Assembly (NCBI RefSeq): GCF_026151205.1
Contig: NW_026971872.1
Location: 1-25,454 of the forward strand
Direction: 5' to 3'
Length of the DNA stretch: 25,454 nucleotides
Source: Bolinopsis microptera
Taxonomy: Eukaryota; Ctenophora; Tentaculata; Lobata; Bolinopsidae
Of this stretch, positions 1-20,985 are shown in pieces. How positions within the stretch are numbered: the stretch's first letter is position 1; every line of letters starts with the position of its first letter. Below the pieces are notes generated by a model, which was given only the letters and a program-made list of their open reading frames with translations, was not told the DNA's origin and made no database searches. A program made the position numbers and the translations under genes.

Positions 1-1165
1 TCCCCACCTCTTCGCCCAGGTGCACTCCACTTGAAACATTATAGGCAACCTTCCCAAGTCCCTTATCTTCTTTCTTTCCTTTCTTCCTCTGGCAGCAGAA
101 CAGCAAGCCCAGAGCGATAGAGACTACCATCAGGAGCCCTGTGGTACAAGCTAGTACCGGCACTAATATAAGTTTTTTTAGAATAGACAGACAAGACCCG
201 AGCTCATCTTCTGTTCGGTTAGATTTTGCAGTTTGAGACTCTAGGCTTACTTTGATCTTCTGGAGCTCGTCTTCTGTCCGATTAAGTAGGCCTGTTACAT
301 TTCGTAACTCATCCTTTATGCTATTAAATTTACTGGTCAGTGTTTCTAGATCGCCTTCAGTCGTGTTGACTTTACTAGTGACTGCATCCAATTGTTCCCT
401 CAATGCCTTTATTTGCACCTCTTTTTCATTTAACTGACTCTCCATGAATTCCTTAGGTACCGTATTATCACATTCACACCCTTTAACTTCAACCACAGAC
501 CCATTTCTTGGCTTTGCCAGCACGTCCTCCCACCGAAGTTGTCTGCTGCTGATAGTCTCCTCTACTTCAGCACACAAACCACCGTCTACTATTCTTTTTA
601 TTGTCTCCGAACTCAGCACCTCTGTATACATATTAAATCTGTATATTTGGCCTCCAAAAACATAACCATCATTAACACTGTTACCCCGTCTATTAAACCA
701 CACAGTCCCGTTAGTATACAGTTCTCTTCCATGTGAAATCTGACCACTAGCTGCTAGTTCCCCGTCCAGGTAAAGCTGCATAATCCGTGGGGAGGAGGAC
801 CAAGTCAGACAATAATGGAACCATTCTTTGTACGGGGTAGTGAACTTACTTTGTAAGTCGTCCAAAATACCATCTCCTGCTACTATGTTGTATCGCCCGT
901 TAGATGTAATATGTATCTCATAAGTATTCATATAATCAGTCGAGTTCCCCTGGTAGTGGAACACCGTATATGTATGGTAGGTCCCGCTGGTAAATCGCTT
1001 AACCCAGAAGCAGATGGTCAATGATTTACGGAACGGGGTCAAGTCGTAATCAAAGCTTATGAAGTCACTTGAAGCGGACCCAAACTGCAGGGCGGGGTTC
1101 TCTCTGTCCACTGCTTCAGTAACAGGGAACACAAGGAAGATTGCGAAAAGGAATAAAAGCAACAT
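1..1165 (-). CDS. LamG/pentraxin-like coiled-coil transmembrane receptor, copy 1 (3' end beyond window)
   Basis: The minus-strand frame is open from ATG at 1163-1165 to the left edge: 388 codons, no stop and no intron. It begins with a hydrophobic signal peptide (about residues 1-18). A LamG/pentraxin-like (concanavalin A fold) domain follows, about residues 25-197, with the family hallmarks KEWFHYC-TW, LYLDGEL and FGGQIYRFNMY. Next come a Cys pair (GCEC), a charged heptad-rich coiled coil with several N-glycosylation sequons, a hydrophobic membrane segment containing ILVPVLACTTGLLMVV, and a basic stop-transfer (QRKKGKK). The last 20 or so residues of the tail are off the window. Compared with the paralog at 14122-15357 it lacks an 8-residue stretch just before the membrane. 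Likely a type I cell-surface protein, possibly oligomerised by the coiled coil, binding a glycan or protein ligand through LamG. The ligand is unknown and the family assignment is from pattern recognition. Confidence 0.82.
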   Translation of the reverse strand, partial: MLLLFLFAIFLVFPVTEAVDRENPALQFGSASSDFISFDYDLTPFRKSLTICFWVKRFTSGTYHTYTVFHYQGNSTDYMNTYEIHITSNGRYNIVAGDGILDDLQSKFTTPYKEWFHYCLTWSSSPRIMQLYLDGELAASGQISHGRELYTNGTVWFNRRGNSVNDGYVFGGQIYRFNMYTEVLSSETIKRIVDGGLCAEVEETISSRQLRWEDVLAKPRNGSVVEVKGCECDNTVPKEFMESQLNEKEVQIKALREQLDAVTSKVNTTEGDLETLTSKFNSIKDELRNVTGLLNRTEDELQKIKVSLESQTAKSNRTEDELGSCLSILKKLILVPVLACTTGLLMVVSIALGLLFCCQRKKGKKEDKGLGKVAYNVSSGVHLGEEVG

Positions 1166-1605
1166 TGTGGAAAGTTATGATACAGAAATAAAACTAGAGT
1201 TGGTGACTGGGTGCTCTGTTGACGTGGTTACCAAGGAAATATAATGTAGAGAATCAGTGGAGCAAGTAATTACTGAAGTTGTGAATGTGTAGTGAACTGG
1301 AGAAGTTTTAGCGTCAGATAATCGAGCAGGGTAGCAGGACACAATCCAGCTGGCATGGACCAGAAATCTGATAATTTATATTACATATTTTGGTATTAAA
1401 TGTCAGGATTCATCAAAATTCAGATGCGAGCGATTAACACACGATAATTTGCACAAATTCAATCAAGTTTCCTGCACAAAGATAAGAAGTCATTCCCTGT
1501 TAAGTTATAACAGTTTAAGCGAACTGTTGTATTAATTATGCACTGAAGGTTATGAAATACTTGGACACCGAAAATTTGTTCAAATAAAGGCCATATTTTT
1601 ATTCA
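1166..1605 (-). promoter_or_regulatory. Upstream region of receptor copy 1, shared with copy 2
   Basis: About 400 bp before the ATG is nearly identical to the DNA upstream of the second receptor gene (15358-15750, continuing at 16103). A TATA-like stretch reads attatatt on the minus strand at 1238-1245, some 75 bp before the ATG, and is conserved in the other copy. High conservation fits either recent duplication or a shared promoter; the sequence alone does not separate these. Confidence 0.45.
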
Positions 1606-1700
1606 TCTGGAGTGGCACTTTTTGAAGAGAGCTGTATAGTCTGCAGTAGGAGGTTTTTAGTCCGGTAGAGGAGATATCAGTCCAGAATAGGAGCGTTTGG
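1606..1700 (-). promoter_or_regulatory. Repeated-motif array upstream of receptor copy 1
   Basis: Read in the gene direction, this holds repeats of a roughly 15-base motif of the form CTCCTMTWCYGGACT spaced about 20 bp apart (two clear, one degenerate). The same array lies upstream of receptor copy 2 (16140-16275) and, inverted, at 5182-5275. It could be a cluster of transcription-factor sites or a piece of a dispersed repeat. Confidence 0.45.
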
Positions 1701-1881
1701 GCCAATAGGCATTATCTTGTGAAACCTAATTTCAACCAACAAACTATAGGACCGGTGTTGTTTTTTCATTTTTGTGGTCTTTTCGCCTTAGTAATAGTAT
1801 CCACATTTAAACAGATGTAAAGATATAACTTACAGAGAATATTTAGTTTAGGCTTACTTTTCACATAATGTTAGCCTGACT

Positions 1882-2498
1882 GTAAGCCTCCCAGGCCTCC
1901 AAATTGCCCACAATAACATAACTTTACTGGGGCGTAAAGTCCCTATTATTGGAGATGTAAGCCTCCCAGGCCTCCAAATTGCCCACAATAACATAACTTT
2001 ACTGGGGCGTAAAGTCCCTATTATTGGAGATGTAAGCCTCCCAGGCCCCCAAATTTACCATAGAGCCTTAATTTTATCGGGTCGTAAAGTCCCTATTATT
2101 GGAGATGTAAGCCTCCCAGGCCCCCAAATTTACCATACAGCCTTAACTTTACCGGGTCGTAAAGTCCCTATTATTGGAGATGTAAGCCTCCAAGGCCCCA
2201 AATTTACCATACAGCCTTAACTTTACCGGGTCGTAAAGTCCCTATTATTGGAGATGTAAGCCTCCCAGGCCCCAAATTTACCATACAGCCTTAACTTTAC
2301 CGGGTCGTAAAGTCCCTATTATTGGAGATGTAAGCCTCCCAGGCCCCAAATTGACCATACAGCCTTAACTTTACCGGGTCGTAAAGTCCCTATTATTGGA
2401 GATGTAAGCCTCCCAGGCCACAAATTTACCATACAGCCTTAACTTTACCGGGTCGTAAAGTCCCTATTATTGGAGATGTAAGTATCCCAGGCCCCGGC
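1882..2498. repeat. 75-bp minisatellite, eight full units and one partial
   Basis: Units begin with gtaagcctcccaggcc at 1882, 1957, 2032, 2107, 2182, 2256, 2330, 2404 and 2478. The first four steps are 75 bp and the later ones 74 bp. Units 1 and 2 form one sub-family (ggggcgtaaag, gcccacaataacata) and the later units another (cgggtcgtaaag, taccatacagcc), so the array grew in at least two stages. It lies upstream of receptor copy 1 and is absent from the matching position of copy 2. Confidence 0.95.
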
Positions 2499-3120
2499 TA
2501 TGCCAAGTGAAAATCTATATTAAAACACTTTCTAGTATTAGCCACAATAATCCAGATGGAACTTACAGTTACATTTAAGCCCCACTCCAAGCCGGCTTCC
2601 ACTTTGGTAATTCATGTTTTGGCAACCCCGCACGGTGCTCTATGTTACATATTGCACCAGTCCAGCGGAGCGCTATGAAGCCTTAAATCATCCCCAGTGG
2701 CTAAGTACCCTTTCTTTGTTTCATAAATGTCTAAATGAGTCCTAAGATAATGCTTTCAAGCAAACTAGATATCCCAATCAATGATTATCACGTTACCTAG
2801 TATTCCTCTAACTAATATAGCCCAAGGCTTAAAAGGCGGCCCATACACTGACCAATTCATGGGCCAAAATTTATTAAATTTGGTGCATATGGGCGTAATT
2901 TGTACCAAATATGGGCGCGGGAAAAATTTGCCCTGTCCCGTTCAAATCGTGGTGCGTTAGTATAGCTCTATAGTGATGACCAGGATTGTTGAATTTGTGT
3001 TAATAACTATAAGATTGTAACAGTGTCTTGTGTCATGTCAGCCGTGACTGGCATACAATTTGTAAGTAAAATATCTTGTCTACATTAAAAAACAATTTCC
3101 ACACTTATAATAATATATAA
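2499..3120. other. Unassigned AT-rich stretch
   Basis: No open frame, RNA gene or repeat was recognised here. A short self-similar patch with 'atgggcg' and 'accaaat' words lies at about 2860-2935. Confidence 0.5.
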
Positions 3121-3445
3121 TTGACCAAAACCCATAATCATGGGTAGAGTGTACCGCTGCCAGTGTCTCTCTTTTCCAAACAAAAGGAAATGATATTAAT
3201 TTGAGGAACCGTCCGCTAATGCAAATTGATACCGAGAATGAAATCGGTCGCTCGCTTTTCCCATTCATTCACGGCTTACGAATTGTAATAAAGCTTATTA
3301 AATGGGAAAAGCGAGCGACCGATTTCATTCTCGGTATCAATTTGCATTAGCGGACGGTTCCTCAAATTAATATCATTTCCTTTTGTTTGGAAAAGAGAGA
3401 CACTGGCAGCGGTACACTCTACCCATGATTATGGGTTTTGGTCAA
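3121..3445. repeat. Perfect long inverted repeat (145-bp arms, 35-nt spacer)
   Basis: Left arm 3121-3265 and right arm 3301-3445 are exact reverse complements by base-by-base reading, around the spacer 3266-3300. Pairing breaks at the base just outside each arm. A transcript from either strand would fold into a 145-bp hairpin. No transposase-like coding and no clear target duplication is seen. It may be a foldback/MITE element, a hairpin-RNA locus, or a recent inverted duplication. An open frame on the minus strand inside it is only a by-product of the arm sequence. Confidence 0.93.
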
Positions 3446-4470
3446 ATATCATTTCTTTTTGATTATAATGTCAGGATAATTTACACAATCGAAACTTCAT
3501 TAACAAGGAGGTAATTCCGACGATTTCGAAATTCTGCCTTTGAAAACGTTTCCTTGTGTTTAGTTAGGTATATCTGTCGATAACCGACTGAATATGGCAC
3601 TTTTTACTCATTCAAGTTGGCATTAAATTCATATACAATGCCATTTAAATATCGTGGAAAGCAGAATATATTCGAAATCACGAATGAGCAAAATTCTCAC
3701 CTTTCGCACGTGCAAACTTTGAGCGGACGTTGCGTGCGCATACAATATTGAATCACCGTAAATTTTTGCATAGTGGTATTTATTATATAGTTTGATAAGC
3801 ATGCAAAGTTTCAGAAGATTTCAAAAAGAACTTGGATCACAACGGGACTCCAAAGTTGATAAAAATCGTGAAAATCAAAATTTTTAGTAATTTTAGCTAT
3901 TTTAAATAAATTTGGGCGTGTCCCCACGTGTGCAACTTTTTGATTTTTAACTTTAAAACTAGCCTATAACACAATTTACACCTTTAAGAAGCAAAATTGA
4001 GCTCCACAACCCAAGGGATGACCTAACACCAGAGAATACTAATTCACAACTTTTGTGTTTTTATAAAATTATTCTTCAAAAAAGCACTAACTTCAATAGC
4101 AAATATCTTTATGAAGGAGCAAGGTAGGAAACTATTCCGGTAGATTTTCGGAATGCTTGAACAATTATCTAAGATAAAAATGTCCTCAGATTTTGAATAA
4201 AATTACTCCTTAATAGCGTAAAATCGATTTGAAAAGTTGTTACTTTGTCAAAAATCAAGTTTTTAAAACACTTAATTTGATGACGTCATCAAGTGATGAT
4301 GATGACGTTAAATTATTTTTCAATACAATGTAAACTGAAGTTTAAACGATTATCTTTAAAACCTGTGGTTCGAGATGACTGTATCGTTTATACTTTCGAA
4401 TCTACGGACACTTAAATGTAGGCTACAATTGACTGCAAAAAGCGTCTATATTATATAATATATATATATC
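3446..4470. other. Unassigned AT-rich stretch with a CRE-like palindrome
   Basis: No coding frame was recognised. The only clear point feature is a 16-bp perfect palindrome TTGATGACGTCATCAA at 4277-4292, containing the CREB/ATF-type core TGACGTCA. No gene lies close by, so its role is doubtful. Confidence 0.4.
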
Positions 4471-4893
4471 TTCACGACAATCTGTTGTAAAACAGGGGTT
4501 CCAGAAAACCCACTTCACGATACTCCTGAAACATGAAATTTTTTTTACAGTCGATTTGGACAAGGTCTAGACGCCCTGCAAAGTTTCAGATCTCTAACTC
4601 AATTTTAACATGGTTTTTAAGGCACCTGAATATGGCGATTTTGGGTTTTTTACCTAATTTCGTATAACATGCTGGCGCGTATTTTGCGCAAATTTCTTAA
4701 AAACCTCCATATAACTATTTCTTATTCCTGTCATCTTTAACATTGAATTAGAATGTTTTGAACTTAAATGTACCTGCTGATCTACTTTCGATGAGTCTTA
4801 ATGCCTGGAAATCAATAAAGGGGATATAATAGTATAGGGGGTAAATAGTATTGTGAATATAAGGGCGACGGTAATGCTTGCCAGCATTGTGAT
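4471..4893. repeat. Dispersed repeat, copy 1 (second copy 18163-18586)
   Basis: About 423 bp, starting ttcacgacaatctgttg and ending gccagcattgtgat, recurs in the same orientation at 18163-18586 with only scattered changes, such as a lost aacatgctggcg segment in copy 2. Flanks are AT-dinucleotide-rich and differ between the copies, so this is a mobile or dispersed repeat, not part of the receptor-gene duplication. It has no open frame of note and the class is unknown. Confidence 0.85.
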
Positions 4894-5181
4894 TATAGGT
4901 AGGTAAATATGAAGTTTATAAAGTTGAATGGGAAAGTAAATAAATGGGTGATATTTATTCGGAAAAAGTCTCAATAGATCGTCTCATCATTGAGAATAAG
5001 GACATAGCCAGCACGTCACCGCATCAAATAGCTGACCCGAAATGTCAAGTATGTACGAGATCTACTTTATTCAAATAAACGATAATTATGGCTCAAAATT
5101 ATGTCAAACGATAGTTTAGTCAAACTCAACTGATGATCTTAGCATTATTTTGCTACAATGAAAGCTTCGATCTATAATATT

Positions 5182-5275
5182 CCAAACGCTCCTATTTTGG
5201 ACTGATATCTCCTCTACCGGACTAGACACCTCCTCCGTGGACTAAACAGCTCTCTTCAAAAAGTGTCACTCCAAA
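5182..5275 (+). repeat. Third, inverted copy of the receptor upstream motif array
   Basis: It matches the arrays at 1606-1700 and 16140-16275 in opposite orientation, with three motif copies (CTCCTATTTTGGACT, CTCCTCTACCGGACT and a CTCCTCCGTGGACT variant) followed by the shared cagctctcttcaaaaagtg tail. Downstream on the plus strand there is no receptor gene; mobile-element sequence begins by 5396. It may be the remnant of an inverted third gene copy, or evidence that the array itself is a dispersed repeat. Confidence 0.75.
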
Positions 5276-5395
5276 TGAATAGTCTTCAATGTCAGCTCTT
5301 TAATTTTGGAAATAATAGTTTTGGAAATAATGTTTTGATCTACAAATAAAGAAGAGTGTATAATGAAGTTTAATTAATTAAATTCTGTTGTTTTT

Positions 5396-5609
5396 ACAAG
5401 AGACAGGGCTTGCTACGCAAGGGAAGAAAATCGGGAAAAACAATCACAAATTTTACAATTAAATATTATAAAACCTAGAAAAAAGAAATGCAAACAATCC
5501 TACACTACTACAAATGTTTATTACATACTACAATGTAATACACGATAAATAAAAGCTGTATAATCAAGAAATAGGGCTTGCAGAGCAAGGGACGGAACAC
5601 AGGAACTGC
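5396..5609 (-). repeat. Monomer array segment with two 'gggcttgc' cores
   Basis: Two monomers carry the core acaagaRacagggcttgc followed by a GCAAG half (5396-5423 and 5563-5590), 167 bp apart. The same monomers recur at 7458, 7953, 9540, 9683, 10012, 10179, 10344 and 11085. The core contains the short stem CTTGC/GCAAG. On the minus strand each monomer carries an AATAAA-like word and the cores follow the 3' ends of the RLE-LINE copies, so they may derive from LINE 3' UTR or from its target satellite. A 1.73-kb TIR element interrupts this segment at 5610. Confidence 0.8.
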
Positions 5610-6408
5610 AGTAGAGGCTCTTACGGGCATTGTCTGCATGATACGCTAGGGACCCCAGATACACCTTACTAGACGTATTTTTGACCGTAGAATCGATTAA
5701 AAGTGGTTTCAAGATGATTGGACTGAGTTAGCGTGGTCAAAATCGCACCGATTTTTGGGCCAAAAAAAGGCCAAAAAACCATGTTTTTTGATATTTTGAG
5801 CAAGTTAATTTTGTTGGCATGTCGGCAAAATTTGCACAAAGATAGCTAAAAGACAGCCGCACAAGATGGTATAAAAATAAAACAAATCCCTCTATTTTAG
5901 CGCAGGTAAAAATCCAAAAAAGTGGTAAAAATTTTGACTTTTTTGCTTGAAGTTTGAATATTTTTTGCAGTTGTATTAAATCAACCCAAAAATAGTCACA
6001 TCGTGTTTGCCTAAATTTTTCCTTTCTGAGAAGTACCCACTTCATATACTTTATCGAAGTTTGAATATTGTCACTCCGCAAGCGTTTTTGCCAAATTTTA
6101 GACGCGCACTACGCGCAAAAGCATTTAGTTGTTATCAATTGGCACCCGCGCGTTCATCATAAATTTCAAACAGCTATAACTCAGCGAGATTATGTCCGTT
6201 CTAGCTCATATTTTCACACTAAATAGAAAATAATGTGATCTTATTGCTGACAAAATATGAATATGATTACTTTATTTGCCTTAGAGAAATAGACTGTCAA
6301 AGTTTAAAACGCGCTTTGGTATAGCACGTGACTAATAAAGCCAAATTTATATTTCTTAACATATTATCGATCCTTAGACATCATACTATTGTGTCTAATT
6401 AGCGGTTA

Positions 6409-7287
6409 CCTTACTCGGGAATATTATAGCGGGTTAATTTATGACTGGGAAAATTAATAACCGGGAAAAATATGGCGGAATTTCCCAAAACCCGCCAAAT
6501 TATCCCGGTCATGTATTTACCGGTGGCCGACCTTTCAAGTTTTTTTTCAGAGGCCAACAAATTTTCAACCGAAATTTCTGTTTTTGTTACTTGTTAAAGA
6601 AGTTATTTCAATTTACAGTTACTGATATTACTCAGAAATAGAAAAAAAGACACGTCTAGTATTTAAAGGAAAATAAATCTATAGCAATAATAAGTCAAAT
6701 CTTCATTAAAGCGTATTCTCATTCTCATTATCGCTAATGTCCCCTCCATTATCATTATTGATATCCCCCTGCTGCTGGCCGTCAAATTCGAAGTTGTATT
6801 GTTGTCTTAACAAGACTTTCATTTTGTCCGCTAATGGGGCTACTGCTCTGAAGGTCAGCCGGAGCTTAATTTCCTGCCCACCGCTTGGTATTGGGGAACG
6901 TCTTGGCTTTGCATCTTCAACTGCTCCAGTAATCAATCCACCGTGGACCATGAAATAGTGGCACAGTTTACTCACTAATTCATGGGCAAGAAAAGTGAGA
7001 ATCACGGTCCACCCTGAAATCTGATTTCTATAACCAAATTGTGATTTTTATAACGAAATTATGGTAGCAACCGCCAATAAAGTTACAGCCCTCCATCCAC
7101 TGCTTCAAAAGTCTTCTCTAGCACATATGAGACTTCAGGTAAAATATGATGATCACCACCCCCTTGGAACCCCTTAATCTGAGTCGGCGGGTTTTTTTAT
7201 GACTGGTAAAATTTTTGACCGGGAAAAATATGGCGGAATCTTCCAAAACCCACCACTTTATCCCGGTTATAATAATCCCGAGTAAGG
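6409..7287. mobile_element. 879-bp TIR element nested in the 1.73-kb transposon
   Basis: The end CCTTACTCGGGAATATTATA at 6409-6428 is inverted at 7268-7287 with 19 of 20 matches. TA flanks both ends (6407-6408 and 7288-7289), fitting a TA target duplication as in Tc1/mariner-like elements. Subterminal copies of a ccgggaaaaatatggcggaa motif occur near both ends (about 6463 and 7218), a typical place for transposase-binding repeats. A fragment lies inverted at 18749-19108. It holds the open frame at 6706-7005. Confidence 0.85.
6706..7005 (-). CDS. Hypothetical open frame inside the nested TIR element
   Basis: This is a 99-codon frame that can be read slightly further upstream, to a stop near 7040; no ATG lies at its upstream edge. 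The N-terminal half is hydrophobic/mixed with a Gly-rich 'MVHGGLITGA' stretch. The C-terminal tail is very acidic, alternating Asp/Asn/Glu/Gly. The related copy at 18749-19108 keeps a recognisable version of the same frame but with deletions and stops, so coding may once have been real. I do not recognise the family. It could be the end of a transposon protein or a chance frame. Confidence 0.3.
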   Translation of the reverse strand: MILTFLAHELVSKLCHYFMVHGGLITGAVEDAKPRRSPIPSGGQEIKLRLTFRAVAPLADKMKVLLRQQYNFEFDGQQQGDINNDNGGDISDNENENTL

Positions 7288-7343
7288 TAGGTCTCTAAAC
7301 TTGTAGCAGAATACACGTATTTTTGCCCGTAAGAGCCTCTACT

Positions 7344-7626
7344 AACAGAGTGTATAAAACAGTGATTCAGCAAGTACCCATTGGGTATTGCTGAATCTGA
7401 CCCACAAAATACTACAATCAATACAAGAATATACAATATAACAAACATCATGTTTATACAAGAATCAGGGCATGCAGAGCAAGAGAAGAAAAATAAGAGA
7501 AAAACTCCAACACATGTATACCCCTGAGTCCAGCAAATAACAATAATTACTTGTACACAAAACTGTATAATATAAAATACATAAAAAATACACAGTCTAC
7601 CCAATAAACGAGATAAAAATTGTATA
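7344..7626 (-). repeat. Monomer array segment with hairpin, copy A
   Basis: This matches 10213-10376 joined to 10946-11083. It includes an imperfect hairpin built on GATTCAGCAAGTACCCA and its complement (about 7358-7393, again at 10245-10280) and one 'cagggcatgc' core at 7458-7485. The long minus-strand frame over this stretch runs across element junctions and is not a gene. Confidence 0.75.
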
Positions 7627-7951
7627 ATACAATAATACCTTGGCTGCTTCGGGCCGCTCGTGATAATTCCCGACAGCTTACTGGAGGGAATTTGCGGCCC
7701 GAAGCAGCCAAGGTATTATTTCTTATAATACATTTCGGTTCCGATTGAAAGAAGTGTAATGTGATACGTGCGCATGATACAATATAGTGTCTAATATATA
7801 GAACGCCAGTGTTATTCGTTTTACAACTTGCCGCCAGCCAGTCTGAGTCTATGCTGATAATACCTTCGCTTCCCTTGCGGGAAAAATGTGCAAATTATCA
7901 GCTCTCGGTGTCCTCGAGTTTTAGTGGATATAATTCCCGGAAGGTATTATA
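7627..7951. mobile_element. 325-bp hairpin-bearing insertion (MITE-like)
   Basis: The sister copy at about 11075-11092 reads straight through ('attgtataaacaag'), so this segment was inserted. TATA flanks it at 7623-7626 and 7948-7951, a possible target duplication. Short terminal inverted repeats read aatacctt / aaggtatt. Inside, 7631-7657 and 7694-7720 form a perfect 27-bp stem (core ggctgcttcgggccgc) with a 36-nt loop that can itself pair (aattccc/gggaatt). No coding. Confidence 0.7.
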
Positions 7952-8088
7952 AACAAGAGACAGGGCTTGCATAGCAAGGGAAGAGATATAAGAGGACCAG
8001 GTAAAAAGTGTTTATTACAGTATCCAGTGAAGAATAAACTAAATATAGAGTATCTACAGTGTATTATACTCTCAATTATATTATATGT
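7952..8088 (-). repeat. 3' tail / monomer following RLE-LINE copy 1
   Basis: It is nearly identical to 11084-11220, which follows the other LINE copy, so it belongs to the LINE 3' UTR or its constant flank. On the minus strand it contains AATAAAC (about 8010-8020) and the core cccttgctatgcaagccctg (7953-7980 complement). Confidence 0.65.
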
Positions 8089-9378
8089 CTAAGACCATGT
8101 CCTGAGAATTCTGGCTGATCCAAGCAGAGCTGTCTTCTGGAGATTAGAGATGCTCAGATTGCAGTGGACTGCGTCGAGGTGTTTACGAAAGTTAATGGTG
8201 ATAGTTCCTAATGCGCCTATCACCACAGGTACGATTGTGACCTTTCGTAAATTCCAGTTCTTCTTAATTTCTCTTTTTAGGTCTTGATATTTCAGTATCT
8301 TTTCTTGTTCTCTATCCAGGATCCGGGTATCTCCTGGGACTGCAACGTCTATGATGGTTGCTGCGTTGGTTACCTTGTCTACCAGGAGGAGATCCAGTCT
8401 GCAGTGTTCGATAACGTGGTCCGACTGGACATGGAAGTCCCACAATATCTTGACTTGTCCGTTCTCCAGCACCTTCTCTGCCCGGTGTTCGTACCACCTT
8501 TTACTGCGTGGGAAGCCGTATTCCTTGCACAGACTCCAGTGCAATGCGGCAACTACTTTTTCATGCCGACACTTATATTCTGTCTGTGAAAGTTTTGGGC
8601 ACCCATTCAGTATGTGGTCTATTGTCTCGTAATGATTTCTGCAGAGTCTGCAGAGGGGAGAACTGAGAAGAGCCAGGTGTTTTGCCAATCCTGTGCTTCA
8701 CATAATTAGTCCTAAGTGCTTGGTCTTGGGCTGTTATCAACAATCCTTCTGTCTCCTTCTTCAAGTCTTGTTGAATGAGCCAGTTCCAAGAGGTTAACGG
8801 GTCCGCTATACCCATCATCTGCTTTGGGAACTGTCCGTGCATCACTTTAGCAGTCCACTTCTCCTTGCGGATTTCCTCGCGTTGTGTTCGGTCGATATCT
8901 TTCTCTATCTCTTCACCCAAGAGTATCTTGTCTTTGACACTAGTCCTTCAGAGCAATCAGTTCTGGGTCTCTACTTCTCACCACATAAGTGGTGAGTGCA
9001 TTCTCCTCTCTATTTACGACTCCCTCTATACTATGTAGCCCACGGCCACCCAGTTGACGGCTGACGTATAACCGATCAACATCTCCTTGGGGTTGGTGAG
9101 CTCCATTTATCCTCATCAGTTTCCGGGTCTTGACATCTAAGGCTTTGGTCTCTCCAGCATTCCATGAGAGAATTCCAGCTCCATATCTTATCACAGGTAC
9201 AGCCCAGGTGTTAATTGCTTGTATACTATTCCTGCCATGAAGCTGGGATTTTAAAACCTTTTTAACTCTTCTGATATACTCTTTTGTAACCAGTGCTTTC
9301 ATCTCTTTGTGTAGTATATCATTTGCTTCTAGTATTGCCAGATACTTATAGCCCTCGTCCTCCAACTCATGGATCTGT
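8089..9378 (-). pseudogene. RLE-type non-LTR retrotransposon (R2/HERO-like), 5'-truncated copy 1
   Basis: Three minus-strand frames (about 9378-8940, 8940-8573, 8688-8089) together give the C-terminal third of a LINE polyprotein. In order they hold the post-RT segment (GYKYLAILEA, WAVPVIRYGAG), a CCHC zinc knuckle (C-x2-C-x8-H-x4-C in CRLCRNHYETIDHILNGC) and the restriction-like endonuclease region (DLLLVDK...IIDVAVPGD). The reverse transcriptase catalytic core is absent through 5' truncation. There are frameshifts near 8940 and 8660 (a 7-base difference from copy 2). The endonuclease PD motif has become LD. The 3' end has an extra two bases near 8097 that change the last codons. Not functional. 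It ends upstream against the tail of a SINE-like unit. Confidence 0.88.
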
Positions 9379-9383
9379 TCTTT

Positions 9384-9523
9384 TTATTATTATATCGGGT
9401 CTCAATAAGAGGTCTCGACTGCCTAGGCATCAAACCTTGGCAATCGGTAATTTTCCTCTGGCCCGGAGTCAGCTGACCCTAGGGACTGCAGAGGATAAAG
9501 ACGTAGAGACTGTGTGTATCTAC
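9384..9523 (-). ncRNA. SINE-like structured unit 1
   Basis: Read on the minus strand, the unit runs from gtagatacacacagtctc to a TAA-rich tail (9384-9396). It has a possible Pol III B box (GGTTTGATGCC, compared with GGTTCGANNCC) in the loop of a stem (CGATTGCC / GGCAGTCG), a second stem CCTCTG / CAGAGG, and an outer GTCTC / GAGAC closure. Related units are at 9762-9844 and 9848-9990. The position next to a LINE and the TAA repeat tail fit a retroposed SINE. Confidence 0.55.
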
Positions 9524-9529
9524 AAAAGT

Positions 9530-9761
9530 GGATGTTTTTACAAGAGACAGGGCTTGCAATGCAAGAGAAGAAAAATGGGCGAAAAAATCATAAAGTGTAT
9601 ATTAAATGAATTAGCAAATAGAAATTCAAACAATCCTACGCTACAATAAATGTTTATTACACAATTATAATTTGTTATATAGACAAGAAACAGGGCTTGC
9701 AGGGCAAGAGATGGGACACAAAAGAGCTGGTAACAGAGTGTATATTACAGTAATTATTATT
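9530..9761 (-). repeat. Monomer array segment between SINE-like units
   Basis: Two 'acagggcttgc' cores lie at 9540-9567 and 9683-9710, 143 bp apart, with the tgtttattaca word between them. The order SINE unit then monomer pair is repeated at 9866-10240, so a composite of about 480 bp seems to have been duplicated. Confidence 0.7.
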
Positions 9762-9844
9762 ATAAAGGGTCTCAATAAGAGTTCTCGACTGCCTAGGCGT
9801 CAAACCTTGGCAGTCAGTAGTTTTCCTCTGGCCCGGGATCAGCT
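9762..9844 (-). ncRNA. SINE-like structured unit 2, 5'-truncated
   Basis: It matches the last 68 bp of unit 3 plus a TAA repeat tail (9762-9776), and on the minus strand begins abruptly at gtcagctgatcc after the tail of unit 3. A 5'-truncated copy joined to another unit's tail is what target-primed retroposition would leave. The B-box-bearing stem is kept, with one change (GTCG to GTCA) that remains a G-U pair in the minus-strand RNA. Confidence 0.5.
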
Positions 9845-9847
9845 GAC

Positions 9848-9990
9848 TATTATTATTATTATAAAGGGTCTCAATAAGAGGTCTCGACTGCCTAGGCGTC
9901 AAACCTTGGCAGTCGGTAGTTTTCCTCTGGCCCGGGATCAGCTGACCCTAGGGACCAGAGGGTAAAGGTGTAGAGACTATGTGTATCTAC
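9848..9990 (-). ncRNA. SINE-like structured unit 3, most complete
   Basis: Minus-strand order: gtagatacacatagtctc, stem CCTCTGG...CCAGAGG, stem CGACTGCC...GGCAGTCG, GAGACC closure, then a TAA tail (9848-9865). The second stem carries GGTTTGACGCC, one mismatch from the Pol III B box, with a 7-nt loop TTTGACG like a tRNA T loop. An A-box-like aGGGTCAGCTG lies about 33 bp before it, with two mismatches. A tRNA-derived SINE is the best reading, but the A box is weak. Confidence 0.55.
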
Positions 9991-10002
9991 AAATCTTTCG
10001 AG

Positions 10003-10376
10003 GTTGTTTTTACAAGAGACAGGGCTTGCTACGCAAGGGAAGAAAACCGGGAGAAACAATCACAAATTATACAAATAAATATTATAAAACCTAGCAAAAA
10101 GAAATTCAAACAATCCTACACTACTACAAATGTTTATTACATACTACAATGTAATACACGATAAATAAATGCTGTATAATCAAGAAACAGGGCTTGCAGG
10201 GCAAGGGACGGAACACAGGGACTGGCTACAGAGTGCATAAAACAGTGATTCAGCAAGTACCCATTGGGTATTGCTGAATCTGACCCACAAAATACCACAA
10301 TCAATACAAGAATATACAATATTTAAACAAACATCATGTTTATACAAGAATCAGGGCATGCAGAGCAAGAGAAGAA
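10003..10376 (-). repeat. Monomer array segment with three cores
   Basis: Cores at 10012-10039, 10179-10206 and 10344-10371 are spaced 167 and 165 bp. 10003-10180 is close to 5387-5562. It includes the hairpin at 10245-10280 and reads through the site where the 5610-7343 element is inserted in the sister copy, supplying its empty site. Confidence 0.8.
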
Positions 10377-10945
10377 CAAGAAATGCGGCCGCTTTTTTTT
10401 TGTGCATGGCCGCTCAATTTCCCGATCCGTGATGGCGTATTTTATCATTTTCTATACAACCTGAGGACCCCAGTTTTTACTGTTTATAAGTATGCAGATA
10501 TGGCGAAGTGACAGGCCGAGCGCCACCAAGTTAATATAATTCCATATTGAATTTGAAAATCGTGTATATTTTTAAAAACCATCTGCTTATTGTTTATGCA
10601 ACCTGACACCCGACACGGATGTGTGCAAAATAGTATAAGTAACTCAAAATAATAATAGTATGCTATCAATTAGTGCCTAGTGGGATATGTACATGGTGAA
10701 ATTAACAATGTACTTGGTCAGTTCAGCGCCGCGCGCCAACAATTAGCTGATTCGGATTATTCAGCAAAATAACTTTGCGCAGGTAGTCACGTGGGCGATT
10801 ACAGTGTACGTGTGCAGGCAGGTACGGTCGCTCGCACGCTCGCAGGTACGGTCGCAAAGCTACCATATACAAAAAAAAAACCTCGTTCGCTAACCCTTGT
10901 CCTTGACTCTTTTGTGCCTTCGGCACTTTGAGTCATGGATCGGGA
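10377..10945. mobile_element. 569-bp insertion with TTTCCCGATCC inverted repeats
   Basis: The sister copy reads 'agagaagaaaaataagagaaaaactcc' (7483-7509) where this copy is interrupted. Inverted repeats tttcccgatccgtga (10418-10432) and tcatggatcgggaa (10933-10946) lie near its ends, the left one about 40 bp inside the junction. Part of it (about 10440-10560, core cctgaggaccccag and gacaggccgagcgc) is related to 23390-23510 in reverse. It also has a repeat of gcaggtacggtcgc at 10815-10855. No credible coding; class unknown. Confidence 0.6.
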
Positions 10946-11220
10946 AAAAATAAGAGAAAAACTCCAACACATGTATACCCCTTAGTCCAGTAAATAACAA
11001 TAATTACTTGTACACAAAACTGTATAATATAAAATACATAACAAATACACAGTCTACCCAATATACGGGTTAAAAATTGTATAAACAAGAAACAGGGCTT
11101 GCATAGCAAGGGAAGAGATATAAGAGGACCAGGTAAAAAGTGTTTATTACAGTAGCCAGTGAAGAATAAACCAAATATAGAGTATCTACAGTGAATTATA
11201 CTCTCAATAATATCATATGT
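10946..11220 (-). repeat. 3' tail / monomer following RLE-LINE copy 2
   Basis: It matches 7490-7626 joined to 7952-8088. It has one core at 11085-11112 and, on the minus strand, AATAAAC between the end of the LINE frame and the core. It gives the uninterrupted version of the site occupied by the 7627-7951 insertion. Confidence 0.7.
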
Positions 11221-12396
11221 CTAAGACCATCCTGAGAATTCTGGCTGATCCAAGCAGAGCTGTCTTCTGGAGATTAGAGATGCTCAGATTGCAGTGGACT
11301 GCGTCGAGGTGTTTACGAAAGTTAATGGTGATAGTTCCTAATGCGCCTATATCACCACAGGGACGATTGTGACCTTTCGTAAATTCCAGTTCTTCTTAAT
11401 TTCTCTTTTTAGGTCTTGATATTTCAGTATCTTTTATTGTTCTCTATCCAGGATCCGGGTATCTCCTGGGACTGCAACGTCAATGATGGTTGCTGCGTTG
11501 GTTACCTTGTCTACCAGGAGGAGATCCGGTCTGCAGTGTTCGATAACGTGGTCCGACTGGACATGGAAGTCCCACAATATCTTGACTTTTTCGTTCTCCA
11601 GCACCTTCTCTGCCCGGTGTTCGTACCACCTTTTACTGCGTGGGAAGCCGTATTCCTTGCACAGACTCCAGCGCAATGCGGCAGCTACTTTGTCATGCCG
11701 ACACTTATATTCTGTCTGTGAAAGTTTTGGGCACCCATTCAGTATGTGGTCTATTGTCTCGTAATGATTTCTGCAGAGTCTGCAGAGGGGAGAAGAGCCA
11801 GGTGTTTTGTCAATCCTGTGCTTCACATAATTCGTCCTAAGTGCTTGGTCTTGGGCTGCTATCAACAATCCTTCTGTCTCCTTCTTCAAGTCTTGTTGAG
11901 TGAGCCAGTTCCAAGAGGTTAACGGGTCCGCTATACCCACCATCTGCCTTGGGAACTGTCCGTGCATCACTTTAGCAGTCCACTTCTCCTTGCGGATTTC
12001 CTCGCGTTGTGTTCGGTCGATATCTTTCTCTATCTCTTCACCCAAAAGTATCTTGTCTTTGACAAAGTAGTCCTTCAGAACAATCAGTTCTGGGTCTCTA
12101 CTTCTCACCACATAAGTGGTGAGTGCATTCTCCTCTCTCTTTACGACTTCCTCTATACTATGTAGCCCACGGCCACCCAGTTGACGGCTTACGTATAACC
12201 GATCAACATCTCCTTGGGGGTGGTGAGCTCCATTTATCCTCATCAGTTTCCGGGTCTTGACATCTAAGGCTTTGGTCTCTCCAGCATTCCATGAGAGAAT
12301 TCCAGCTCCATATCTTATCACAGGTACAGCCCAGGTGTTAATTGCTTGTATACTATTCCTGCCATGAAGCTGGGATTTTAAAACCTTTTTAACACT
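11221..12396 (-). pseudogene. RLE-type non-LTR retrotransposon (R2/HERO-like), 5'-truncated copy 2
   Basis: One long open frame (12405-11434, 323 codons, of which LINE homology starts near 12396) covers the post-RT segment (WAVPVIRYGAGILSWN), the CCHC knuckle (CRLCRNHYETIDHILNGC) and the endonuclease motif PDLLLVDK...IIDVAVPGD with its PD intact. It stops early at 11434-11436, where GAA (Glu) in copy 1 is TAA here. A 2-bp insertion near 11353 also shifts the last part. The RT core is missing. Copy 1 and copy 2 share the 3' flank but carry independent lesions, so both are dead copies of one family. Confidence 0.9.
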
Positions 12397-12584
12397 TATT
12401 ATCATTTAACATTATTAATATCCGTTCATAAAGCTCCGATTATAAGATTCTAAGGTTTATCTCACAGACGTACATAATAAATGTGCTGATAATGAAATAA
12501 TCCCACCTTTAAAAAATTGAATGAAAAATACCAGGACAGCTTATTTCTAAACTGTTCAACACAAAATTGTTAGTTTCATTATTG
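12397..12584. other. Short unassigned spacer between LINE copy 2 and the hAT element
   Basis: AT-rich, with no frame or repeat recognised. Confidence 0.4.
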
Positions 12585-12592
12585 GTTATAGT

Positions 12593-13555
12593 CTTAGTTG
12601 TAGTGAACGCTGAACTTAGTCGTACTGATCACGTACGTTCCAGTCGTACTGAACGTACGTTTATGTTAACGCAAGTTTGCGTTCATAAGACGCAAACTTG
12701 CGTTAACATAAATAAGGTCTCGCTGCTTGTCAACTGTGAGGCGGTTTCTTTTTTTTTGTATATCACCCAGTCGTACAAGCTCCAATTCGTCTCACAGGAC
12801 GTGAGGCTGATGTAGATTGCGACAGCGCTTTCATCGCAAAACTCTGTATTTCCGAGTTCGGGTACCTCGCAACCGAAGTTGCTCCACCAAGAGACTGGAT
12901 CGTCAGAATCTTGGCTAAAACTTGAGGCAGCGTCAGTAGAGAATAAGCCTATTTTCTCTCGGTAGAACGTGTACTGCGAAAGTATCTTCTTCTTTGTTGC
13001 GCCGTCACACCACGTGTCCATGACATCTAGAAACTCCTTCCAGACATCCTGATTCGTGTGCTGATCATATCCCTGATAAGCCGGGTGAACACAAAACCCT
13101 ACTGAATGTAGGGGGGAATGGAGCTCGAGCCACCTTTTGTTAGCAAGACTAACCATATATCACTTTTATGGTTTCAATTGCGAAAAGCAAAATTTGCTAA
13201 CTTTAAGGTGAACAGATAATATTTGTAATCAATTACACCGATGAAACCAACAGGAATGTTAACACTATTGTCTGAAAATCTAAGCAAGACTATTAGAATT
13301 GAGCATAAATAGTCGACTTCTATCCATAAACACTAGCGGAGTTTTAGGGCCTGAAACGTGCATGCAATGCATGCGCGCTAAAATTACTCTTCTAACTCAT
13401 CTAGAACATGTAAAATTGCGGGAAACGATGGCGTGTCGACGTGTTAATATTCTAAATCTGATTAACGTTTCTTATGTTCCGAACGTTAAAATCTTTTAGC
13501 GAACGCGTTCACAAACTATTTTTAGTGAACGTTCCGTACGTTCACCACAACTAAG
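12593..13555. mobile_element. hAT transposon, 963 bp, internally deleted, with exact 8-bp target duplication
   Basis: The terminal inverted repeat CTTAGTTGTAGTGAACG at the left is mirrored by CTTAGTTGTGGTGAACG at the right, 16 of 17 matching. GTTATAGT occurs immediately outside both ends (12585-12592 and 13556-13563), the 8-bp duplication typical of hAT elements. Subterminal DNA is full of GAACGTACG/GTGAACG-type words, likely transposase sites. A perfect 22-bp palindrome with 7-nt loop sits at 12661-12711. The element keeps only the end of a transposase gene. Confidence 0.93.
12716..13156 (-). pseudogene. hAT transposase C-terminal (dimerisation) fragment
   Basis: The minus-strand frame from 13156 shows the ordered landmarks of the hAT C-terminal domain: RWLELHSPLHSVGF, then the DVWKEFLDVMD region, the YRE--GLFS region, DPVSWW-NFG, and SCETNWSLYDWVIYKKK, matching the family pattern S-CERNWS-(F/Y)---H-KKRN. 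The N-terminal zinc finger and the catalytic first half are absent. The frame runs on into the internal palindrome to 12683, giving a foreign-looking tail. Non-autonomous remnant. Confidence 0.85.
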
Positions 13556-13563
13556 GTTATAGT

Positions 13564-14121
13564 AGTAAACATTTTTCCCCCGTTTTCTGTTAGTGTTAAG
13601 TAAGCTTCCCATAAGAAACATTTTTAAACAGTTAAACTTCGAGGAAAATTAAAAGTCAAAGAATTAAAGTAATACGATGTAGTTCACAACATGTGGTCTT
13701 TAAAAAGGTTCAATAATTTCCAAAAATACACTCCAACTAATAACTTTATTATAAGTTTAACTATTCTGTCAGAAAAACTTGTCGTCATCTTAATCATATA
13801 AAGATCGGTTAGTTCAAACTTCAAAACGAAATAACTGTTCACAAATTTCTTAAGTTTTTGCGGTCCTTAACAGTTCCAAGATGATTAATCCTGCAAGAAG
13901 AAGATGCTATCAAGCGGAAGAAACGTCACTGCTGTACTTCTTGCTTTGTAAGGTTCACCTGAGGTTGTAGAATAAAGTTGGTTATTGGTGTACCGTGTAA
14001 TAGTTAATAGAGTGTCAAAGACCAATTTTTAAAAAGATAGTGATACAGATAACGTGGCTTAGTGGCATATGAAATGTGCTTGAAGTTGAAGTATTGCCAA
14101 ATTATCAAAAAATATTTACCG
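13564..14121. other. Unassigned spacer downstream of receptor copy 2
   Basis: AT-rich. It should contain the 3' UTR of the receptor gene, but I found no clear AATAAA in the gene direction close to the stop codon. No other feature seen. Confidence 0.4.
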
Positions 14122-15357
14122 TTAAGTTTCATAGTTCTCGTAAATGTTGTCAGATGTGTCATCTACACTAGGAGAACTCCCCTCCTCTTCACCCAGGTGC
14201 ACTCCACTTGAAACATTATAGGCAACCTTCCCAAGTCCTGTATCTTCTTTCTTTCCCTTCCTTCTCTCACAGCAGAACAGCGATCCTAGAGCAATAGAGA
14301 CTACCATTAGGAGCCCTGTGGTACAAGCTAGTACCGGCACTAAGATAAGATCTTTTAGAATATAAGATATTTGGTCTTTTAGAATAGACAGACAAGACCC
14401 GAGCTCGTATTCTGTTCGGTTAGATTTGGCAGTTTCAGACTCTAGGCTTACTTTGATCCTCTGGAGCTCATCTTTTGTCTGATTAAGTCGGCCTGTTCCA
14501 TTTTGTAACTCATCCTTTATGCTTTTAAATTTACTGGTCAGTGTTTCTAGATCGTCTTCAGTCGTGTTGACTTTACTAGTGACTGCATCCAATTGTTCCC
14601 TCAATGCCTTTATTTGCACTTCTTTTTCATTTAACCGACTCTCCATGAATTCCTTAGGTACCGTATTATCACATTCACACCCTTTAACTTCAACCACAGA
14701 CCCATTTCTTGGCTTTGCCAGCACGTCCTCCCAGCGAAGTTCCCTGCTGCTGATAGTCTCCTCTACTTGTGCACAGAAACCACCGTCTACTATTCTTTTT
14801 ATTGTCTCCGAGCTCAGCACCTCTGTATACATATTAAATCTATATATTTGGCCTCCAAAACAATAACCACCATGATTGAAAGATGCTCTATTGATCCACA
14901 GAGTCCCGCTAGTATGCAGTTGTCTTCCATGTGAAGTCTGGCCACTAGCTACTAGTTCCCCGTCCAGGTAGAGCTGCATAGTCCGTGGGGAGGAGGACCA
15001 AGTTACACAATAGTGGAACCATTCTTTGTGCGGGGTAGTGAACTTACTTTGTAAGTCATCCAAAATACCATCTCCTGCTATTCTGTTCCACAGCCCGAAA
15101 TCTGTAATATGTATCTCATAAGTATTGTATTCACTAGAATCCGCCTGGTAGTAGAACACCGTCCGGTGTGAGCACCGCCTGGCTACTACCTTAAACCAGG
15201 AGCAGAGGGTCAACGATGTACGGAACGGGGTCAAGTCGTAATCAAAGCTTATGAAGTCACTTGAAGCGGACCCAAACTGCAGGGCAGGGTTCTCTCTGTC
15301 CACTGCTTCAGTAACAGGGAACACAAGGAAGATTGCGAAAAGGAATAAAAGCAACAT
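14122..15357 (-). CDS. LamG/pentraxin-like coiled-coil transmembrane receptor, copy 2
   Basis: A complete intronless 411-aa frame, ATG at 15355-15357 and TAA at 14122-14124. Signal peptide 1-18. LamG/pentraxin-like domain about 25-195 with KEWFHYCVTW (111-120), LYLDGEL (129-135) and FGGQIYRFNMY (167-177). GCEC at 226-229 could form inter-chain disulfides. Coiled coil about 235-335, with sequons at N218, N264, N286, N292 and N313. Membrane span about 337-362, basic ERRKGKK, then a 40-residue acidic tail ending NIYENYET. Y406-E-N fits the GRB2-SH2 pattern YxN. It differs from copy 1 mainly in residues 47-95 and 153-167 and by 8 extra residues (about 327-334) made by a local duplication of the LKD segment. 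The start is supported by the signal peptide and by identity with copy 1. Probably a cell-surface recognition receptor; ligand unknown. Confidence 0.88.
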   Translation of the reverse strand: MLLLFLFAIFLVFPVTEAVDRENPALQFGSASSDFISFDYDLTPFRTSLTLCSWFKVVARRCSHRTVFYYQADSSEYNTYEIHITDFGLWNRIAGDGILDDLQSKFTTPHKEWFHYCVTWSSSPRTMQLYLDGELVASGQTSHGRQLHTSGTLWINRASFNHGGYCFGGQIYRFNMYTEVLSSETIKRIVDGGFCAQVEETISSRELRWEDVLAKPRNGSVVEVKGCECDNTVPKEFMESRLNEKEVQIKALREQLDAVTSKVNTTEDDLETLTSKFKSIKDELQNGTGRLNQTKDELQRIKVSLESETAKSNRTEYELGSCLSILKDQISYILKDLILVPVLACTTGLLMVVSIALGSLFCCERRKGKKEDTGLGKVAYNVSSGVHLGEEEGSSPSVDDTSDNIYENYET

Positions 15358-15753
15358 TGTGGAAAGTTATGATACAGAAATAAAACTAGAGTTGGTGACT
15401 GGGTGCTCTGTTGACGGCGTTACCAGGGAAATATAATGTAGAGAATCAGTGGAGCTCGTAATTACTGAAGTTGTGAATGTGTAGTGAACTGGAGAAGATT
15501 TAGCGTCAGATAATCGAGCAGGGTAGCAGGACACAATCCAGCTGGCATGGACCAGAAATCTGATCATTTATGTTACATATTTTGATATTGAATGTCAGGA
15601 TTCATCAAAATTCAGTTGCGAGCGATTATCTCACCATAATTTGCACAATTTCAATCAAGTTTCCTGCACAAATATAAAAAGTCATTCCCTGTTAAGTTTT
15701 AACAGTTTAAGCGAACTGTTGTATTAATTATGCACTGAAGGTTATGAAAAATA
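15358..15753 (-). promoter_or_regulatory. Upstream region of receptor copy 2
   Basis: It is nearly identical to 1166-1560, with the same TATA-like attatatt (minus strand, 15430-15437) about 75 bp before the ATG. The match stops where a LINE is inserted and resumes at 16103. Confidence 0.45.
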
Positions 15754-16102
15754 AATCCACGATTGGATACCCTTACTAAGGTTCCAGCTGTCCGTAGAAA
15801 AAGCTCAGCTGCTCACCAGACTCTATATGAAACATCATTTGGTGTAATGGGTCCCAGACTCTGGAACTGTATACCTTCGCACATACGTGCAGTCTCCAAA
15901 CATGATGGCTTCAAGCATCATATGACGGCATTCATGCTTTCCTCGCCGGATAAACCGCCAATCCGGGGCTTCACATCACCGAACTCCAATTCTATACTGG
16001 ACTGGCGTAACGATCGAGAGGCATCTGCTCTCTGGGGTGGTCAGCAACTCTGATGGCCTGTCGAGGTTCGACGAAGCAGATCAAAGGTATCAAAGGTAAG
16101 GT
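15754..16102 (+). mobile_element. 5'-truncated CR1/Jockey-type LINE inserted upstream of receptor copy 2
   Basis: Copy 1 of the duplicated region reads 'ggttatgaaatacttggacacc' (1549-1568) without this segment. Here AAATA flanks it on both sides (15749-15753 and 16103-16107), a likely target duplication. The insert ends in an aggta-type short repeat (tatcaaaggtaaggt), as CR1-like 3' ends often do. It encodes only the last 96 or so codons of a LINE polyprotein (15763-16053). Confidence 0.85.
15763..16053 (+). pseudogene. C-terminal end of LINE reverse-transcriptase polyprotein
   Basis: A 96-codon open frame contains FGVMGPRLWNCIPSHIR, FKHHMTAFMLSS and NSNSILDW, the signature of the extreme C-terminus of CR1/L2/Jockey-type ORF2 proteins (pattern GPRLWN-(L/I)P--(I/L)R ... 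FK--L). Endonuclease and RT domains are missing through 5' truncation, so the apparent ATG is internal and it is not a functional gene. Confidence 0.85.
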
Positions 16103-16139
16103 AAATACTTGGACACCGAAAAGTTGTTCAAATAAAGGC

Positions 16140-16275
16140 CATCTTTTTTATTTATCTGGAGTGACACTTTTTGAAAAGAGCTGTTTAGTCTGCAGTAGAG
16201 GAGGCGTCCACTGCGTCCACGGAAGAGGTTTTTAGTCCGGTAGAGGAGATATCAGTCCAGAATAGGAGCGTTTGG
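16140..16275 (-). promoter_or_regulatory. Repeated-motif array upstream of receptor copy 2
   Basis: In the gene direction, four copies of a motif near CTCCTMTWCYGGACT occur over about 85 bp (16187-16270), one more than in copy 1 because of an extra gcgtccactgcgtccacgg segment. The shared flank cactttttgaaRagagctgt is present. It lies about 0.8 kb from the ATG here, 0.35 kb of that being LINE insertion. Confidence 0.5.
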
Positions 16276-17049: not shown

Positions 17050-18138
<1,089 letters not shown>

Positions 18139-18162
18139 TCTGGTGTTATTAAGGTGATATAC

Positions 18163-18586: not shown

Positions 18587-18748
18587 ATATATTATAATAA
18601 TAATATAACGGGTTGAAATTAATTAAAAAACAAACAAATGATGTCATCCTCTCATCAACTGAAAAACTATTGTATATGTACTGTACACAATTTAAAAATG
18701 ATTATTAGCGCTCTATCATAATCAGTGCAGGTATAAAACAATTTTCTC

Positions 18749-19108: not shown

Positions 19109-19126
19109 TCTTTTACGTGACGTCAC

Positions 19127-20959: not shown

Positions 20960-20985
20960 TAGTAGAACTGTTTGCTACAGTATAA

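Follow-up and report, generated by a model that had tools for sequence, protein, structure and literature searches.

The 25,454-bp stretch of DNA analysed here (the window) is the entire contig NW_026971872.1 of the ctenophore Bolinopsis microptera (assembly GCF_026151205.1) and carries two receptor genes, c1 and c2, whose heads belong to the Pentraxin/LamG_3 superfamily with its ConA-like lectin fold. These genes are members of an expanded paralog family that combines a conserved frame with a variable module, and the ligand-side loops of this family diversify under positive selection. In addition, some of these lectins are related, through one membrane anchor and cytoplasmic tail, to SRCR and cysteine-rich (Cys-rich) receptors of the same genome. 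The explanation that we favour, with somewhat better than even confidence, is a hypervariable pentraxin-like family for non-self recognition, some members of which are membrane receptors and one locus of which is hyperdivergent. In the following, the large contigs, which together with C113 hold all matches to the family, to its anchor and tail and to photoproteins, are called C1-C13 (16-24 Mb for 11 of them), the window C113, and the loci of relatives are given L-numbers.

Both receptors lie on the minus strand, and each consists of one open frame, in agreement with an earlier note on this DNA that described two single-exon-type receptors. The c2 gene (14122..15357) encodes a complete receptor of 411 residues, and c1 (2..1165; 388 residues) is cut by the contig end. 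The order of parts is the same in both: a signal peptide, a pentraxin/LamG head, a coiled coil, a membrane segment and a tail, which is partial in c1. In c2, the coiled-coil stalk (residues ~236-325) is located at 14383..14652, the membrane segment (residues 337-361) at 14275..14349 and the cytoplasmic tail (residues 362-411), with the C-terminal NIYENYET, at 14125..14274. The c1 membrane segment is found at 98..172, with the tail running from there to the contig end. The Pfam models Laminin_G_3 (66.5 bits for c1 and 61.1 for c2, with a cut-off of 27.6) and Pentaxin (41.5 and 34.5, with a cut-off of 25) both match the heads, and the nearest solved relatives among PDB sequences are PTX3 forms (8.7e-9 for c1 and 3.8e-6 for c2), with CRP ranked lower. 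An SRCR domain was not found in c1 or c2, either in Pfam up to an E-value of 0.1 or in PDB searches with both proteins.

At the DNA level, positions 1-1557 and 14178-15749 are homologous, with 90.3% identity over 1581 columns. This alignment includes ~390 bp of upstream DNA (1166..1557 for c1 and 15358..15749 for c2), which bears out the hundreds of shared upstream bases noticed earlier. Of 1548 aligned bases, 125 differ, and these differences cluster, with a dispersion of 3.7 versus a permutation mean of 0.90 (reached in 0 of 5000 permutations), and the longest identical run measures 130 bp (reached in 6 of 5000). A simple recent tandem duplication as the origin of the pair was ruled out, as the identity is 90% and patchy. 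Codons 1-46 contain no replacement and one silent change (silent divergence, dS, 0.03), so that the first 46 residues are indeed identical. The two LamG patches differ most, as had also been noticed. Patch 1 (codons 47-95; c2 15073..15219, and residues 47-97 of c1 at 875..1027) has 29 replacement and 9 silent changes (replacement divergence, dN, 0.31; dS 0.35; dN/dS ~0.9), and patch 2 (codons 151-166; c2 14860..14907, and residues 153-169 of c1 at 659..709), which aligns to the pentraxin calcium loop, has 13 and 2 (dN 0.47, dS 0.22). Codons 96-150 have 8 replacement and 5 silent changes (dS 0.15), and codons 167-226 have 3 and 5 (dS 0.14). The patches also differ in cysteine content: C62 and C166 of c2, one per patch, are without counterpart in c1, and a disulfide bridge between the two loops of c2 might be guessed at.

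The conservation outside the head is less complete than was first proposed. The coiled coil has 11 replacement changes in 87 codons (columns 241-330) with an 8-residue gap beside it; in the membrane segment and tail (columns 331-414), the protein is conserved and the silent sites are not (dS 0.26). Divergence is thus concentrated in the LamG patches and not strictly confined to them; confinement to the LamG domain is ruled out by the high silent divergence of the anchor and tail. Silent changes are also uneven within the head (1 versus 9 for codons 1-46 versus 47-95; Fisher P 0.013), a pattern that would be expected if the copies had exchanged sequence in addition to being under selection. The earlier note had named equally high silent divergence in the patches and a dN/dS well below 1 as findings that would speak against diversification. 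Only half of this holds: patch 1 does show higher silent divergence, but its dN/dS of ~0.9 is not well below 1, and the patch dN/dS is 0.78-1.31 clade-wide.

Positive selection was studied in four clades of relatives with the site models M1a and M2a. Clade A includes c1 and c2 and the patches were defined on these two genes, so the independent tests are those of clades B, C and D. Loci L008, L030, L049, L050, L053 and L055 are in the tree and in no clade test, and L029, a near copy of L025, is in the pairwise set of clade B and was left out of its site models. Pairwise dN/dS is higher in the patches than in the rest of the domain in all four clades: 0.85 versus 0.42 in A (21 pairs), 0.66 versus 0.31 in B (36 pairs), 0.81 versus 0.27 in C (21 pairs) and 1.01 versus 0.42 in D (6 pairs). 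Twice the log-likelihood difference between the models (2dlnL) is 31.0 for A (7 genes), 25.2 for B (8), 36.1 for C (7) and 24.8 for D (4), with an omega of the selected class of 8.0, 3.7, 5.6 and 4.8, respectively; in simulations under M1a for clade C, none of 21 data sets exceeded 5.38. With columns within 2 of a gap removed, 2dlnL is 19.1, 20.3, 26.8 and 24.3 for A to D. The patches alone (47-103 and 151-166, with their own trees) give 19.1, 9.6, 35.0 and 10.1, and the rest of the domain, fitted for A, C and D, gives 1.3, 0.15 and 9.8, with an omega of 0.24-0.46. Sites of high posterior probability fall mainly within the patches (5 of 6 in A, P 0.015; 6 of 8 in B, P 0.016; 11 of 13 in C, P 1e-4; 16 of 22 in D, P 5e-5), and some positions, such as 89 and 158, recur as selected between clades. 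The codon tests in the four clades hence support the diversifying selection on the LamG patches that had been proposed.

These results also bear on the possibility that the variation reflects an artefact or relaxed constraint, that is, decaying duplicates or errors of alignment or assembly. Broken copies do exist (head and tail of L004 are in different frames, the frame of L012 is closed by a stop behind the head and L054 contains a stop), and the contig that forms the window is small and unplaced. The sites with omega above 1 are specific, lie beside constrained ones, recur between clades at several positions and hold in gap-distant columns; c1 and c2 are open over 388 and 411 residues; and the repeats of the contig match chromosomes of the same assembly. 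We therefore regard an artefact as very unlikely.

The selected sites were placed on the pentraxin fold using an alignment of CRP, neuronal pentraxins and type-B heads (a second kind of LamG head, described below), and this mapping covers clades A, C and D. They fall mostly on CRP positions 42-48, 53-60, 64-74, 79-83 and 137-151, which presumably surround the calcium and ligand face of CRP, and coincide with D60, E138, Q139 and Q150, among others. Exceptions are sites at CRP 16, 19 and 122, and c2 positions 97 and 222, which have no CRP partner. Most selected sites would then lie near the calcium and ligand residues of CRP, with 'ligand surface' defined solely through the CRP alignment. As calcium ligands of CRP, we take D60, N61, E138, D140, E147 and Q150, and these letters agree with the CRP sequence. 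In the alignment, the calcium ligands of CRP/SAP-type pentraxins are lost in c1 and c2: CRP D60, N61, E138, Q139 and Q150 align to T79, Y80, A158, S159 and Y165 of c2, and D140 and E147 fall in gaps. The type-B head of L053 has retained the calcium motif, with D, N, D, D, Q and Q at the six positions. Its nearest solved protein is neuronal pentraxin-1 (3.3e-18), and a pentraxin head, a coiled coil and a membrane span together resemble the neuronal pentraxin receptor. This could point to a diversity of cell-identity or synaptic adhesion molecules as in that system. However, the aligned neuronal pentraxins retain the GQEQD loop that c1 and c2 have lost, and positive selection would be unusual for an adhesion code, and this role appears the most improbable of all those considered.

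The family is large and dispersed. A genome search with c2 gave at least 112 matching stretches, mostly 30-45% identical; 101 of 391 candidates were scored, so this count is a lower bound. The matches are spread over C113 and all but one of the 13 large contigs. Of 40 reading frames (c1, c2 and 38 loci), 33 were kept for the alignment and tree, with L010, L046, L047, L048, L051, L052 and L054 excluded as partial or broken; the start of L003 was set 7 residues inside the first Met, which touches only codons 1-7. Loose patterns were used to scan 36 loci of relatives (28 from the search and 8 fetched, with L046 and L048 omitted) for hallmarks of a secreted type: an exon 1 end motif like NITRWDVLYTPPYFNKVF...SW, mostly ahead of a GT donor, and, further downstream, a short exon with a motif resembling FVGVNITEGVVDHF. 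At least one of these was present in 28 loci, some perhaps by chance. The anchor and tail occur in 5 loci (L004, L005 and L053-L055), both types in none and neither in 3; the stretches of L053-L055 stop soon after the tail, with later exons outside the view. No membrane segment was seen by eye in 13 loci read further downstream, in which the last exons encode short polar tails such as CENDTDTES. Judged from these sequences, secretion is probably the usual state in the family. That all members are intronless receptors is ruled out, as most relatives that were read have a splice-donor-like exon 1 end followed by short exons.

Two further observations were made on the family. Stalk length differs through repeated 28-residue (84-bp) coiled-coil units, of which c1 and c2 contain few and L003 and L006 many more. 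Also, pairs of near-equal score are found in opposite orientation on one contig (C4:1362749 and C4:1505093; C1:605302 and C1:188325), which suggests inverted segmental duplications or assembly duplicates.

The genome contains 12 matches to the 94-residue anchor/tail module, which is carried by c1 and c2, by two C8 genes (one of them out of frame with its head), by three genes with a distant LamG head, type B (one on C5 and two on C13), by two C13 receptors that start with SRCR followed by Cys-rich repeats, and by three distant matches, two of which read as SRCR/Cys-rich and one as Cys-rich in the part fetched. One anchor and tail is therefore found on three kinds of heads, namely LamG-A, LamG-B and SRCR. 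Pfam at an E-value of 0.001 gave no SRCR for the C13 receptor, and PDB sequences showed it: the SRCR label of the C13 gene at 10.19 Mb is based on PIT54 (1.3e-18) and CD163 (1.5e-15), and the other SRCR labels were given by resemblance. The DNA identity of the module among 8 copies amounts to 87.4-96.5%. By its tail, c1 is closest to the SRCR receptor at C13:9.19 Mb (93.6%) and less close (91.3%) to c2, its sister by the head. The relationships of heads and tails disagree, with weak support in the tail tree (18-86). The head/tail junctions read ...ELGSCLSI in LamG-A genes and ...YAVTSK in LamG-B genes. In L053, a c2-like stalk (91.1% over 56 bp) stands right before a c2-like tail (92.6% over 297 columns), and type-B genes therefore probably took the start of the stalk and the tail from an A-type gene. 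The lectins, in turn, may have acquired the anchor and tail from SRCR receptors. The mosaic exchange that was proposed at first is supported by the uneven silent divergence and by the one module on three kinds of heads. Two of the type-B LamG genes with this module, L054 and L055 (C13:5555400-5556660 and 5561660-5562930), are nearly identical to each other and lie ~6 kb apart on C13; both end early in the tail, and L054 has its in-frame stop in the head.

The remainder of the window connects it to C13. The flank at 17256..24609 is collinear, in six blocks with large indels, with C13:10160419-10172747 at 0.36-1.12% substitutions, and the flank at 16093..17143 is collinear with C13:10179150-10180247 at 5.4% (neither flank has an assigned strand); a 110-bp block at 17,148-17,257 differs by 5.6%. 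The divergence is 11.9% in the c2 region (14,465-15,749), with a peak of 25.7% in the 250-bp bin 15000-15250 in the LamG head, and 9-10% in the blocks 3' of c2. Both c1 and c2 align to the same LamG gene on C13, which is of the secreted type, with a 564-residue frame, repeated 28-residue coiled-coil units and the downstream exon motif; on C13, the anchor and tail belong to an SRCR receptor 12.8 kb beyond it. Two membrane LamG receptors on C113 are thus opposed to a secreted-type LamG gene and an SRCR receptor on C13. The assembly comprises 264.65 Mb in 232 contigs. For B. microptera, Schultz et al. (PMC10232365) give 13 chromosome scaffolds with 97.23% of the bases and a k-mer estimate of ~254 Mbp, with haplotigs removed. 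C113 most likely represents an alternative haplotype that escaped purging, hyperdivergent and with differing gene content, and C113 and C13 may instead represent a segmental duplication on one chromosome copy.

Two versions of one locus raise the question of allorecognition, in which the membrane members would sit at a polymorphic self/non-self locus. The sharp rise in divergence between the two collinear versions, with 0.4-1.1% in the flank and 12% in the gene (peak 26%), and the difference in gene content are in favour of it. However, this is a single pair of versions, and selection is equally strong in clades B, C and D, whose tested members all bear a secreted-type hallmark. In addition, injured ctenophores reportedly fuse with non-kin, which would argue against allorejection; no paper to this effect was found in the literature searched. 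Allorecognition as the main function is therefore considered unlikely. A broader proposal, in which a histocompatibility-like ctenophore locus has haplotypes that exchange secreted and membrane forms and swap ectodomains (LamG-A, LamG-B and SRCR) on one signalling tail under balancing selection, would be speculative, and we hold it to be doubtful.

Several points weigh against a hypervariable non-self recognition family. The site models were fitted with our own codon-model code, checked by the 21 null simulations alone, and exchange between paralogs can inflate such codon tests. Selected sites are also found outside the patches (32, 35 and 142 in D, to which the value of 9.8 for the rest of the domain is due, 32 in A and 222 in C). 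When the patches are fitted alone, B and D lack a neutral class, and half of their sites fall into a broad selected class (omega 1.9 and 3.3), which makes these two the weaker cases. Over the 33 heads, the contrast in variability is moderate: mean entropy is 1.65 in the patches versus 1.22 elsewhere, and 19 of the 40 most variable residues are in the patches (64 of 203 residues), with ~12.6 expected. In DNA, the C13 LamG gene shares 88.2% identity over 1666 columns with a C8 paralog and less, 86.1% over 1296, with c2, so that paralog replacement or exchange is as possible as diverged alleles. Finally, neither an immunoreceptor tyrosine-based activation motif (ITAM; a YxxL/I pair) nor an inhibitory one (ITIM; (I/V/L/S)xYxx(L/V/I)) was seen in the tail KVAYNVSSGVHLG...NIYENYET, which was inspected by eye. 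The YEN of this tail presumably fits a Grb2-type SH2 site.

A non-self recognition family remains our preferred reading, and its parts could work together as follows. The c1 and c2 proteins are type I membrane receptors in which a coiled-coil stalk joins a pentraxin-like LamG head to a membrane span and a short tail with tyrosines. The family around them is large and dispersed, and most of its coiled-coil, pentraxin-like lectins look secreted. Duplication and exchange would keep the signal peptide, stalk and tail alike while the heads diverge, a mechanism suggested by the observed mosaic. The heads may oligomerise through the stalk, and the diversified loops may bind variable non-self surfaces. 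Secreted members would act as opsonin-like lectins, and membrane members could signal via the tail tyrosines. The immune role that had been proposed for the family is plausible in this form, with microbe recognition as the first choice and allorecognition as the second. Gamete recognition between sperm and egg by fast-evolving reproductive lectins would also account for selection on binding loops and for many duplicates, which are typical of gamete proteins too. In our judgement, the family size, the presence of both secreted and membrane members and the tail shared with SRCR receptors fit immunity better, and a gamete role is improbable.

Several other elements were observed. Between the two receptors of the window, a retrotransposon-like stretch is present in two copies of 97% identity (7948-9270 and 11080-12397), with a weak, sub-cut-off zf-RVT match. 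A tandem repeat with a unit of ~74-75 bp is located upstream of c1 (1898-2495), and an inverted repeat at 3117-3449, whose 149-bp arms are separated by 35 bp, has related copies on C13 and is possibly a small DNA transposon. Upstream of c2 (16754-17026) lies an imperfect 10-bp tandem repeat, TGTCATTCCC-like, and a low-complexity frame resembling it is found at C13:10179230-10179835. Elsewhere in the genome, photoprotein genes gave 59 matches, of which the full-length ones are 85-90% identical to a berovin query; one of them matched berovin (2.1e-125), mnemiopsin (4.5e-125) and, as the best obelin, one at 5.6e-19 in the PDB. These matches indicate a ctenophore, and a cnidarian origin of the DNA was rejected on their account. 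Their tandem arrays (C5:17012652-17026413, C13:11082373-11094352, C1:21999334-22006938 and C3:3415412-3427375) have near-identical scores, with many members at ~940-1030-bp spacing, which we read as strong homogenisation or very recent amplification.

Little is known about non-self recognition in ctenophores. Hypervariable receptor families as such are already known, and a pentraxin-headed one from a ctenophore, in which several heads share a tail, is to our knowledge a new variant. The titles and abstract openings searched contained no description of such a family, with most subscription journals outside that scope. The words 'laminin' and 'pentraxin' do not occur in the available text of the paper on the immune repertoire of Mnemiopsis (PMC11797021), nor do 'laminin' and 'lectin' in that of a paper on speciation in Mnemiopsis (PMC13231562). 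Ctenophores are placed as sister to all other animals by Schultz et al. (PMC10232365). In a pentraxin-fold family with strong diversifying selection, ectodomain exchange on a common tail and a hyperdivergent locus, variable recognition would be a novel role of the fold, and the loci given here provide concrete places to ask whether ctenophores have polymorphic self/non-self receptors.

Long and membrane pentraxins, such as PTX3, which acts in innate recognition, and the neuronal pentraxin receptor, which is membrane-anchored, likewise combine a pentraxin head and a coiled coil in one protein. In contrast to these, the coiled coil of c1 and c2 comes after the head, the calcium ligands are lost, and the family is large and hypervariable, with some members carrying the anchor and tail shared with SRCR receptors. 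An SRCR expansion with unusual architectures is described in the Mnemiopsis paper (PMC11797021); compared to ctenophore SRCR receptors, the heads of c1 and c2 are pentraxin-like, and the anchor and tail are common with the SRCR/Cys-rich receptors of the present genome. The snail FREPs, amphioxus VCBPs, Hydractinia Alr and Botryllus fester/BHF are likewise large or polymorphic families, in which a variable binding part is joined to a conserved rest and diversifying selection and mosaic exchange are seen. The family in B. microptera differs from these in its pentraxin/LamG binding fold and in belonging to another phylum, and it is known from the genome sequence alone.

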